Part shown: one piece after another, positions 30,159 through 32,857 of the stretch
How the letters are laid out: the number at the start of each line of letters is the position of its first letter
Numbering within the stretch: position 1 is the first letter of the stretch
From: a virus
Length of the DNA stretch: 41,224 nt
Virus record (IMG/VR): IMGVR_UViG_3300037264_005018
Span: 1-41,224 of that record
Reading direction: 5' to 3' (one strand)
Notes under the pieces: generated by a model
Databases searched by the model: none
What the model saw: the letters and a program-made list of their open reading frames with translations, nothing else
What the model was told of the DNA's origin: nothing
Program-made: the position numbers and the translations under genes

Positions 30159-30485
30159 ATGGCGACAAACACGGAGCGCGCCGGAGGGGAGCGCACCGTT
30201 ACCCCTCAAACCACGGCCGATCGTGTGCGTGGGCTACGGCGCGCGCTCGCCGTCACGCAGGAACGACTCGCCGAGATGTGCGGACTGGAGCGAGTCGAGG
30301 TGGTGCAGTTGGAGGCCGGGAAGAACAAGGCGACGAGCTACGCCACGCGGGCAGCGCTCGCCCGGGGCACCGACGTTCCTATTGATGCCATGGCGGCCTA
30401 CCTTGACGGCGAGATCGCGCTTCCAAGCCTCCTTGCCCTGCAGGGCTCGTACGCCTCGACCCAGTGGTGGCGCCCTCCTTCATGA
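30159..30485 (+). CDS. CI-like XRE repressor
   Basis: A 108-residue protein with DRVRGLRRALAVTQERLAEM then ERVEVVQLEAGKNK, a canonical XRE helix-turn-helix (TQERLAEM first helix, EVVQLEAGKNK recognition helix and turn). The C-terminus (VPIDAMAAYLDGEIAL) is short, so it lacks the RecA-sensitive peptidase of lambda CI. ATG 30159 lacks a strong ribosome site. Divergent to the Cro-like gene over operator 30089-30114. Its stop overlaps the end of the leftward operon (30480-30485). Likely the lysogeny repressor; antirepressor 24079-25299 may be its antagonist. Confidence 0.6.
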   Translation: MATNTERAGGERTVTPQTTADRVRGLRRALAVTQERLAEMCGLERVEVVQLEAGKNKATSYATRAALARGTDVPIDAMAAYLDGEIALPSLLALQGSYASTQWWRPPS

Positions 30486-30899
30486 GGACACCTCGGTTGC
30501 TGCGTAGGCGATGAGATCCAGGCAGGTCGAGCACCCATCCACGTGGTGCTCGAGCAGCGCGATCTGGTCGGTCTGGAGTCGCCCGGCGACGAAGTCCAAG
30601 ATGGTCTCCTCATCCGGACAGCCGCTGCTCTCGAGTCGCCGAGCCTTGCGCTCCGTCTCCTCGCGGGCCGCGCGCGCGATCACGCGCGCCACCTCAACTT
30701 CAATCCACCGCTTCGCGTCGCACCGTCGCCAGCGCGTCGTGCCCTTGCCCAGCGCGTACGCCATCCACGGCTCGCTCGAGCGGTGGCGCACGGCGAACGC
30801 CTGGAAGTCCTCGTCGCGCCCCGTCGCGAGGATCTCCGGCGCCGTCAGGGCGAGCACGGCGTGCTCCTCGACGTGGTAGCGCTCGAGCTTCCACCTCAT
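30480..30899 (-). CDS. Protein with zf-HC2-type (anti-sigma) zinc finger
   Basis: A 139-residue protein. The C-terminal 40 residues show CPDEETILDFVAGRL, then EHHVDGCSTCLDLIA, the H-x3-C-x2-C arrangement of zf-HC2 domains of anti-sigma factors. The N-terminal 90 residues have a compact mixed region (RWKLERYHVEEHAVLALTAPE and EPWMAYALGKGTTRW), unlike a transmembrane anti-sigma, and there is no membrane segment. ATG 30899 overlaps the previous stop. A phage-encoded sigma inhibitor would redirect host transcription (speculative). Confidence 0.5.
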   Translation of the reverse strand: MRWKLERYHVEEHAVLALTAPEILATGRDEDFQAFAVRHRSSEPWMAYALGKGTTRWRRCDAKRWIEVEVARVIARAAREETERKARRLESSGCPDEETILDFVAGRLQTDQIALLEHHVDGCSTCLDLIAYAATEVSS

Positions 30900-30935
30900 C
30901 CCGCCTTCTCCTTCCCGCTCGTCGCCTCGAGCTCG
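30896..30935. repeat. 40-bp direct repeat, left copy (gene-junction duplication)
   Basis: A perfect 40-bp repeat identical to 31316-31355. In both copies it holds the final coding codons, the stop codon and the overlapping ATG of the next gene. The interval is 420 bp. It may result from recombination at homologous gene ends. Confidence 0.75.
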
Positions 30936-31135
30936 AGGCCGTCCTTCGGGGTCGGCTTCTGCTCGAGAAGCGCCTCGAGATCGGAGATCCGCCGAGCCTG
31001 ATATCGCTGCTTCGCGCGCAGCCGAAAGACCTCGGCGATCAGGCGCGAGACGATCCGCGCCTCCGCCTGCGACCAGCTCACCGACGTGAGGACCGCCAAC
31101 AGCTCCGACGCTTTCATCACCGTCTCGTTTGTCAT
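30896..31135 (-). CDS. Small coiled-coil protein
   Basis: A 79-residue helical protein (ETVMKASELLAVLTSVSW, ARIVSRLIAEVFRLRAKQ). Its last 12 residues (ELEATSGKEKAG) are identical to the integrase C-terminus because both genes end in the same 40-bp DNA repeat. ATG 31135 overlaps the upstream reading frame stop. No family is recognised. Confidence 0.5.
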   Translation of the reverse strand: MTNETVMKASELLAVLTSVSWSQAEARIVSRLIAEVFRLRAKQRYQARRISDLEALLEQKPTPKDGLELEATSGKEKAG

Positions 31136-31319
31136 CGGTCCTCGGTGCGCCCCTCGAGCTGGGGCGTCGTTGACTGCTGAAGGAGGAAGCTCGGCAGCTC
31201 GCCAGATCGACGCGCCTCCGCGAGGGGCTGCCGGAGCGCGGTGTAGACATGACGAGCTTCTCGATCGCGGCGCGCGTGCGCTCGACAGGCACGCTCGTGC
31301 CGGCGGCGTAGGTCTTCAT
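31132..31319 (-). pseudogene. Internally deleted remnant of a phage protein (MKxYAxGT type)
   Basis: ATG 31319, overlapping the integrase stop, starts MKTYAAGTSVPVERTRAAIE, the N-terminus of a widespread phage protein family (usual form MKxYAEGTxVPVExSRAEIE). After about 25 residues the frame loses family resemblance. In the -1 frame the downstream sequence encodes LRQPLAEARRSGELPSFLLQ and ends at TGA 31132-31134, matching the family's C-terminus (LRPxIAEAYxTGxMPPLLP). So the middle is deleted and the halves are out of frame. Confidence 0.6.
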
Positions 31320-31355
31320 CCCGCCTTCTCCTTCCCGCTCGTCGCCTCGAGCTCG
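31316..31355. repeat. 40-bp direct repeat, right copy
   Basis: Second copy of the repeat at 30896-30935. It encodes the last residues of the integrase (LEATSGKEKAG) and the start of the pseudogene. Confidence 0.75.
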
Positions 31356-32857
31356 GGCTCAGGCGGCGCAGCGCGAGCTCGGGCGAGGCCTGGGCGCGAG
31401 CTCGCGGCGGGCTGCGGCGGCGCCCGGGGAGGGGCCGCGGTCAGCGTGAGGAACGCGTCGGCGAACTGCACGGCGAGCCGGCCCGCGAACCGGCTCCGAC
31501 CTGCGACCGCTCGGAGCACGCGCTCGGCCAGGGGGCGGAGAGTCTCCCCAATCTTTCCCGCTTCGGAGTCCAAGTGCGCGGAACCATTCAATAGGGCGTC
31601 GAACTCCGGAGCCGAAGGCCAAAGGTTCGAATCCTTTGTGGCGCGCGGCTGATTTGCAGCGTTTTGCTCGCGGTCGGGCATCGGCGGTGGGGAGAGTTTG
31701 GGGAGAGTTGGCAACTCTGCCATGGTCGCCCGGCCGGCCTCCGCGAGCACCCCGGGCGCGAGGTGGGCGTACCGCTCCGTCACCGTGATCGACGTGTGCC
31801 CGAGCACGTCGCGCACCTCGTCGAGGCGCCACGTCCGGCCCCACCAGGCCGCGACCAACGACGACGCACACGTGTGGCGGAGGTCGTGCCAGCGCACCGC
31901 GCGCCCGTCGTGGCGCCTCGAGGCGTCGGCGAGGCCCGCGGCCGCGAGGTAGCCACGCCAGCCCCTCGGGGCCTTGCTGTCGCGCCGTCTGCATCCCCGC
32001 GCGGTCGGGAACGCGAGCTTCAGCGGGTTGTTCCGGCAGTAGACGGGTATGAGCTGCAACCAGCGGCGCGCGGCCGCGAGCGCGATCCCGAAGAGCGGTA
32101 CGCGCCGGACTTTGCCGTTCTTCGGCGGTTTATGCCCCGGCTTCCCCCACCGCACCATCACGTGCGGGTACGGGCCCTCCACGACCAGGTCGACGAGCTC
32201 GAGGTTCCAGAGCTCGCCCTGACGGAGACCGGTGCCGATCGCGAACGCGATCAGCATCCGATCGGGCTCGGGGATCGCCTCGCACGTGAGGACCGCACGC
32301 TGCTCCTCGGGCAGGAGGTACGTCCAGCCGTCGTCGCGTGAGACCTTCGGAGCCTTGATCTTCGCCGCGGCGTTGAGCGCGATCAGCTCGTCGTCGACGG
32401 CAGCCTGCAGGCAGGAGCGGAGCAGCGCGAGGCAGTGCTTGATCGTCTGCGGCGAGATCCGCCGAGAGGCGCGCTTGTCGGCCGCCTGGCGCGTGTGGAG
32501 CTGCGACACCCAGTGCTTGATATCGCGCCGGCCGATCGTGGTGAGTGGGTCGTCCGCGAACGACGCTGCAAGGATGTGCCTCGTCCACCGGCTGCGGTCC
32601 GTCTTGGTGTTGCGGCCGCCGGCGAGCTCGCGCTGGTCGAGCCATTTGGTGCCGTACTCTCGCAGCGTCTCCCCATTGGTCGCGATCTCCCCCGCCGCGG
32701 AGATCGCGCTGAAGCCGCGCAAGAGGCTCTCGCCTTCCTCGACCGTGTCGACCGTGTCGAGGTCCCGGTACCGGCCATCGACGAGCACGCGCACGCGGAA
32801 GCGCCGGCCGCGCGGCTCGATCGTGCCGATCCCGTACGGGACGCTCCGCGGCTTCAT
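31316..32857 (-). CDS. Tyrosine integrase with internal attP
   Basis: Site-specific recombinase for lysogenic integration, 513 residues from ATG 32857. Residues 1-60 form an AP2-like arm-binding domain (IGTIEPRGRRFRVRVLVDGR). A core-binding domain runs to about 170. Catalytic residues: R212 (GTGLRQGELW), K246 or K249, H324 and R327 (HDLRH), H354 (LGHTS) and nucleophile Y363 (ERYAHL). About 150 residues follow Y363, more than usual. They include residues 405-418, encoded by a tRNA-Arg-like sequence that looks like attP. Integration there would replace the C-terminus. It ends in the 40-bp repeat. Confidence 0.85.
   Translation of the reverse strand: MKPRSVPYGIGTIEPRGRRFRVRVLVDGRYRDLDTVDTVEEGESLLRGFSAISAAGEIATNGETLREYGTKWLDQRELAGGRNTKTDRSRWTRHILAASFADDPLTTIGRRDIKHWVSQLHTRQAADKRASRRISPQTIKHCLALLRSCLQAAVDDELIALNAAAKIKAPKVSRDDGWTYLLPEEQRAVLTCEAIPEPDRMLIAFAIGTGLRQGELWNLELVDLVVEGPYPHVMVRWGKPGHKPPKNGKVRRVPLFGIALAAARRWLQLIPVYCRNNPLKLAFPTARGCRRRDSKAPRGWRGYLAAAGLADASRRHDGRAVRWHDLRHTCASSLVAAWWGRTWRLDEVRDVLGHTSITVTERYAHLAPGVLAEAGRATMAELPTLPKLSPPPMPDREQNAANQPRATKDSNLWPSAPEFDALLNGSAHLDSEAGKIGETLRPLAERVLRAVAGRSRFAGRLAVQFADAFLTLTAAPPRAPPQPAASSRPGLARARAAPPEPELEATSGKEKAG
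31599..31645 (+). other. attP candidate: 3' half of tRNA-Arg(CCG) inside the integrase gene
   Basis: On the plus strand CTCCGGA (31604-31610) is an anticodon loop with anticodon CCG. GCCGA follows, then variable loop AGGCC. The T arm is AAAGG-TTCGAAT-CCTTT (31621-31637) with a perfect stem. GTGGCGC plus a discriminator base form the 3' acceptor strand. The 5' side of the anticodon stem no longer pairs and no 5' half precedes, as expected for an attP copy rather than a gene. Myxophage Mx8 is a known precedent for attP inside the int gene. Confidence 0.65.
32162..32335. repeat. 174-bp integrase segment duplicated at 32902-33075
   Basis: This part of the integrase gene (codons 175-232, including catalytic R212) is repeated 740 bp away in the same orientation with 6 mismatches in 174 bp. 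The duplicate forms the core of chimeric ORF 32854-33090. Confidence 0.8.

Follow-up and report, generated by a model that had tools for sequence, protein, structure and literature searches.

The stretch analysed here, referred to as the window, is the complete 41,224-bp virus record IMGVR_UViG_3300037264_005018. It carries terminase, portal, sheath and baseplate genes, and the phage has a contractile tail. Its integrase gene (int) is an open reading frame on the minus strand, with an ATG at 32857 and a stop ending at 31316, and a tRNA-derived attachment site lies inside it. The features of the locus are:

31316..32857, minus strand: integrase (tyrosine recombinase) gene in its free-phage form, running through attP, 513 aa
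31769..31771, minus strand: codon of the catalytic Tyr363, upstream of the attP core in int; the Tyr is invariant in 32 sequences
31688..31709, plus strand: putative integrase-side arm-type sites, two copies of TGGGGAGAGTT with 11-bp spacing (repeat analysis)
31604..31644, plus strand: attP core, antisense to int, a tRNA-Arg(CCG) 3' half spanning anticodon loop to acceptor stem
31543..31550, plus strand: putative tail-side arm-type site, TCTCCCCA, in inverted orientation to the other arm (repeat analysis)
31319..31603, minus strand: post-attP tail of Int, residues 419-513, predicted to be lost on integration (open reading frame, rejoined attP of lysogens, tail profile)
31439..31567, minus strand: conserved domain of the tail (residues 431-473), a helical hairpin by AlphaFold prediction
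30480..31319, minus strand: downstream open reading frame, overlapping the int stop by ATGA (seen in the sequence)
30159-30485, plus strand: repressor-like HTH gene near attP, on the strand opposite int (PHROG repressor match)

Int of the window is a tyrosine recombinase of the PF00589 type, with the catalytic R, HxxR and Y and a known fold. It matches PF00589 with E 3.8e-17 and the PHROG integrase profile with 5.8e-48, its fold resembles those of the Tn1549, XerH and lambda integrases in structure comparison, and the R..HxxR..Y residues are invariant in its relatives (alignment A2). PF00589 was the sole domain found in the protein, PF16795 being absent. The attP core spans 41 bp and codes for Int residues 404-418, with 95 residues beyond 418. 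On the plus strand it consists of the anticodon loop CTCCGGA (31604-31610), the stem strand GCCGA (31611-31615), AGGCC (31616-31620), the T arm AAAGG-TTCGAAT-CCTTT (31621-31637) and the acceptor strand GTGGCGC (31638-31644). A first-pass annotation had described this stretch as a tRNA-Arg(CCG) 3' half serving as attP within int, after Tyr363, and was right in its sequence parts, description and numbering. Because neither ARAGORN nor Rfam detected a complete tRNA in the window, just the 3' half is present; with no 5' half beside the core, the window copy is not integrated at the tRNA-Arg(CCG) site, which is what the same annotation had read from the intact site.

Pattern searches found Polyangia tRNA-Arg(CCG) genes that match the window core at 39 of 41 positions in two genomes (G276 and G294) and at 38 of 41 in a third (G007). 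Most of the differences are paired changes of the T stem (AAAGG/CCTTT in the window vs AGAGG/CCTCT or GAAGG/CCTTC), as a copy of a related host's tRNA should show. When Polyangia 5' halves are joined in silico to the window 3' half, the acceptor stem GCGCCAC/GTGGCGC is perfectly paired; together with the matches, this argues that the tRNA half is not there by chance. No exact or one-mismatch copy of the 41-mer occurs in 379 Myxococcota genomes, so that the exact host was not found, and the viral contigs searched held no exact or near-exact copy of the half. The earlier expectation of a host tRNA-Arg(CCG) ending in this sequence was therefore borne out as a match of 38-39/41 in Polyangia, but not as a gene with the exact core sequence.

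One of these genomes, G294, contains a prophage in exactly the tRNA-Arg(CCG) gene, with an Int 44% identical to that of the window. Its two core copies lie 33.8 kb apart and have a block of 47 bp in common (the att repeat); one is a complete tRNA with int running in antisense, the other a bare 3' half. At attL, the truncated Int ends ATEDSNLWPSAPEADALSS / RATEDSNLWPSAPEADALSS within the tRNA. When attR and attL are joined in silico, the reading frame stays open for more than 100 further residues and again includes the tail, which contains ELVARAERYVRAVASRNRFVNRYALDLCDLLLETFAD, homologous to LRPLAERVLRAVAGRSRFAGRLAVQFADAFLTL of the window. Prophages with a reshaped int, for which a search had been suggested, are thus represented at the very same tRNA, and both objections anticipated at first reading, that no host tRNA would match or that att sites would map elsewhere, fell away with the Polyangia tRNAs and this related prophage. 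Rejoined attP sites also lengthen Int in Sorangium cellulosum So ce26 (G008; tRNA-Lys, 60.6 kb, +133 aa), in G012 (tRNA-Arg CCT, 42.6 kb, +92 aa) and in G192 (tRNA-Thr, 5.2 kb, +42 aa), and a free, tailed relative (L003) and an integrated, tail-less one with a complete tRNA-Trp (L005) form a close natural before/after pair. A tail swap with the catalytic domain kept, as in Mx8, is seen in G294, G008, G012 and G192 and is predicted for the window. A search for prophage ends was negative in G205, G165, G163, G160, G019, G277, G289, G293, G157 and G170, where the contig ended, int had no tRNA nearby or the examined DNA contained no repeat; no integrated copy of the window phage itself was seen. 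The 5.2-kb element of G192 (L181-L183) lies in tRNA-Thr(CGT) and comprises int and attR, with zinc-ribbon-like CxxC pairs in the tail; it is possibly a satellite.

The arrangement is common among the relatives. Most of them, viral and genomic, carry an antisense tRNA 3' half 32-78 residues past the catalytic Tyr, derived from Arg(CCG), Arg(CCT), Arg(TCT), Lys, Trp, Thr(CGT), Cys, a CAT-anticodon tRNA, Asp and others (anticodons of the relatives' fragments were read by eye). The half may be translated in each of the three frames. Where an unintegrated relative has a recognised half, the frame is open through it, save in fragments cut by a contig end, and continues for 46-129 further codons, while lysogens usually stop ~9-13 codons after the T arm. 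In L054, L057 and L060, Int already ends before or inside the T arm, which means that the arrangement is not universal. The nearest Int to that of the window in a tree, L002, uses another tRNA; the tree, in which the placement of L059 (translated in a wrong frame) is void and deep forks are unresolved, was used solely for this comparison. Two relatives (L008 and L051) have an Int with the conserved tail and no recognisable tRNA half, and their att core may be another gene.

Repeats that could serve as arm-type sites flank the core on both sides, and the whole attP thus appears to be embedded in coding sequence. The attP of G294 has the same arm layout at nearly equal distances, and paired inverted arm repeats occur in 14 of 19 attP sites (mean 0.6 and maximum 3 in shuffles).

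The tail beyond the core is a conserved protein domain. Its frame is maintained in phages that target different tRNAs, and it is left at attR in lysogens. Pairwise comparisons and profiles detect homologous tails in ten or more relatives aimed at different tRNAs, and conservation of the post-attP segment is seen in more than twelve such relatives. A profile built from nine tails, with the window held out, gives the window tail 24.9 bits, a score reached by 0 of 400 shuffles (maximum 11.4); since the shuffles keep composition only and the training tails were picked by similarity, the held-out window is the fairest test. A second profile from fourteen tails agrees (20.7 bits). The tail profile also found orphan tails in other genomes, three of which (L203, L205 and L206) immediately follow an antisense tRNA 3' half, the arrangement expected of attR, and a fourth of which (L202) begins like the C-terminus of the integrase L060 in that genome. 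For one close pair of tails (L012/L017), dN/dS is ~0.24 with dS near saturation. AlphaFold predicts a disordered linker (379-430), encoded by the attP core and its near flanks, followed by a hairpin of helices 431-452 and 458-473 (pLDDT ~74-87). Pfam and PDB profile searches with the tail gave no convincing relative. Seven tails (L010, L014, L016, L018, L021, L025 and G192) are short or unrelated and are not matched by the profile, so that a member need not have the hairpin.

A tail of this kind could be a meaningless read-through of a GC-rich frame past attP, with only the catalytic part of Int mattering. Stops are indeed rare at such G+C content, tail length varies from about 40 to 130 aa, and some tails do not match one another. 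However, the 24.9 bits of the held-out tail against a shuffle maximum of 11.4, the homology across ten or more tRNA-diverse relatives, the purifying selection in one tail pair, the predicted folded hairpin and the open frame of unintegrated relatives with a recognised tRNA half all speak against it; conservation across att targets largely refutes this explanation, which is considered very unlikely. It is also very improbable that the region is conserved solely as DNA carrying the P arm of attP, with the protein as a by-product. Arm-type repeats do fall within the first ~60 bp past the core in most relatives, and third-position G+C (GC3) is relaxed in the linker (0.69 vs 0.93 in the catalytic part), but the conserved hairpin reaches well past the arm repeat, its protein is alike where the DNA differs, and its GC3 is coding-like at 0.83.

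A somewhat less remote, though still unlikely, alternative is that the tail is not part of Int, being either a separate small protein or a means of coupling translation to the downstream gene. The Int stop overlaps the next start (ATGA), a Shine-Dalgarno-like AAGGAG precedes it, and the tail survives at attR without int. No conserved internal start codon lies upstream of the hairpin, however, and the frame is continuous with int whichever frame the tRNA half is in. An attP inside int is also found in the archaeal SSV-type integrases (PMC8371274), in which int is split and inactivated by integration. Such a suicide integrase is scarcely credible here, because the core (residues 404-418) lies beyond all catalytic residues including Tyr363 and the lysogen frames retain the full catalytic domain; the att site does not separate the catalytic residues into Int(N) and Int(C), and the anatomy led to rejection of this candidate. 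An attP that lies inside the window int, with the Int tail exchanged on integration, is the main reading, with a probability of about 0.8.

Int of the myxophage Mx8 (IntP), reportedly studied by Tojo in 1996 and by Magrini in 1999, is like that of the window in having a tRNA-like 3' half as attP core, antisense in int and past the catalytic Tyr, and a long tail beyond attP (~112 aa after the T arm in Mx8). On integration, int of Mx8 gains a new 3' end and is not inactivated, and its behaviour is changed, described as a 'molecular switch' (PMC6070905). Mx8 and SSV are listed by Islander as known integrases that extend across attP (PMC4383910). The two systems differ in their tRNA, and the Int proteins share only 28% identity over 168 aa (E 1e-9), which does not amount to close kinship; the Mx8 tail scores 3.5-5.1 bits against the tail profiles, with 13-50 of 400 shuffles equally high, and its relationship to the window tail is not significant. 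Moreover, Mx8-like phages are podoviruses, whose tails are very short (PMC6070905), whereas the window phage has a contractile tail. The window Int follows the same principle as Mx8 and belongs to a distinct integrase lineage. Archaeal SSV1, pTN3 and pT26-2 likewise have an att site in int, which is reshaped by integration, but in those systems the gene for the enzyme is split and lost, and suicidal integrases are held to be reserved to archaea (PMC8371274); in the window, all catalytic residues would stay with the lysogen copy. Integration-dependent immunity in mycobacteriophages such as BPs (PMC4557955) is similar in that attP lies inside a gene whose C terminus and behaviour change, but that gene encodes the repressor, whereas in the window it is int, the HTH repressor-like gene ending at 30485.

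The window is best explained as a free (circular or packaged) genome of a temperate phage with a Polyangia-type myxobacterium as host. Recombination at the anticodon-loop end would restore the host tRNA gene, as is seen in relatives and predicted for the window, and would replace the last 95 Int residues with 6 residues encoded antisense by the tRNA 5' half. The exchange of some 95 residues proposed by the first-pass annotation is thus what the sequence predicts: ~95 replaced by ~6, taking the 513-aa free Int to a tail-less lysogen form of 424 aa that would keep every catalytic residue. Integration may thereby alter Int activity, for which Mx8 is the only direct precedent. Control of integration versus excision is usually credited to separate directionality factors. 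The tail may be a state-dependent control domain, carried by Int solely in the circular phage, that most likely favours or permits attP x attB recombination or limits Int stability; integration itself would then switch Int to the lysogen form used in excision. A role in directionality or stability is the favoured function of the tail, directionality on its own being possible but tentatively held. Equally tentative is the proposal that the hairpin is a dedicated integration-state domain, with which tailed Int would integrate and be poor or blocked in excision, loss of the tail freeing an excision-capable form. Such a domain would be a directionality switch built into Int, widespread among myxobacterial phages and retained when the tRNA target changes. 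In an integrase family shedding a conserved folded C-terminal domain upon integration, the reaction product itself would reset the enzyme. Mx8 has been treated as a special case, and here the arrangement is spread over Polyangia phages with many tRNA targets and embedded arms; this breadth and the embedded arm sites make the role of the tail directly testable. The principle is known from Mx8, and what is new is how widespread the arrangement is, together with the embedded arms and a conserved folded tail that persists when the target changes.

Integration would presumably also uncouple the downstream reading frame (30480..31319) from the int promoter. A direct repeat of ~39 bp (31318-31356 and 30898-30936) gives Int and a small downstream gene a common C-terminus, ELEATSGKEKAG, and a Shine-Dalgarno-like AAGGAG and an ATGA overlap occur in both cases. 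The downstream protein (30480-30900, minus strand) has a C-terminal CPDEE...HHVDGCSTCL motif, which we take to be zinc-finger anti-sigma (zf-HC2)-like, a type common in myxobacteria. Several further arrangements were observed among the relatives. A degraded int remnant in G004 (L173-L175, int-sense ~22.5-23.3 kb), 34 kb from another int, is still joined in frame through a tRNA-Arg(TCT) half to a well-kept tail. The int frame of L052 / L177 extends for 479 codons further; the extension, presumably resembling an Rpn-family protein, is probably in-frame read-through in GC-rich DNA. Finally, about ten related integrases (L065-L085) occur on separate contigs of a single metagenome-assembled bacterium (contigs JAUHXC01).
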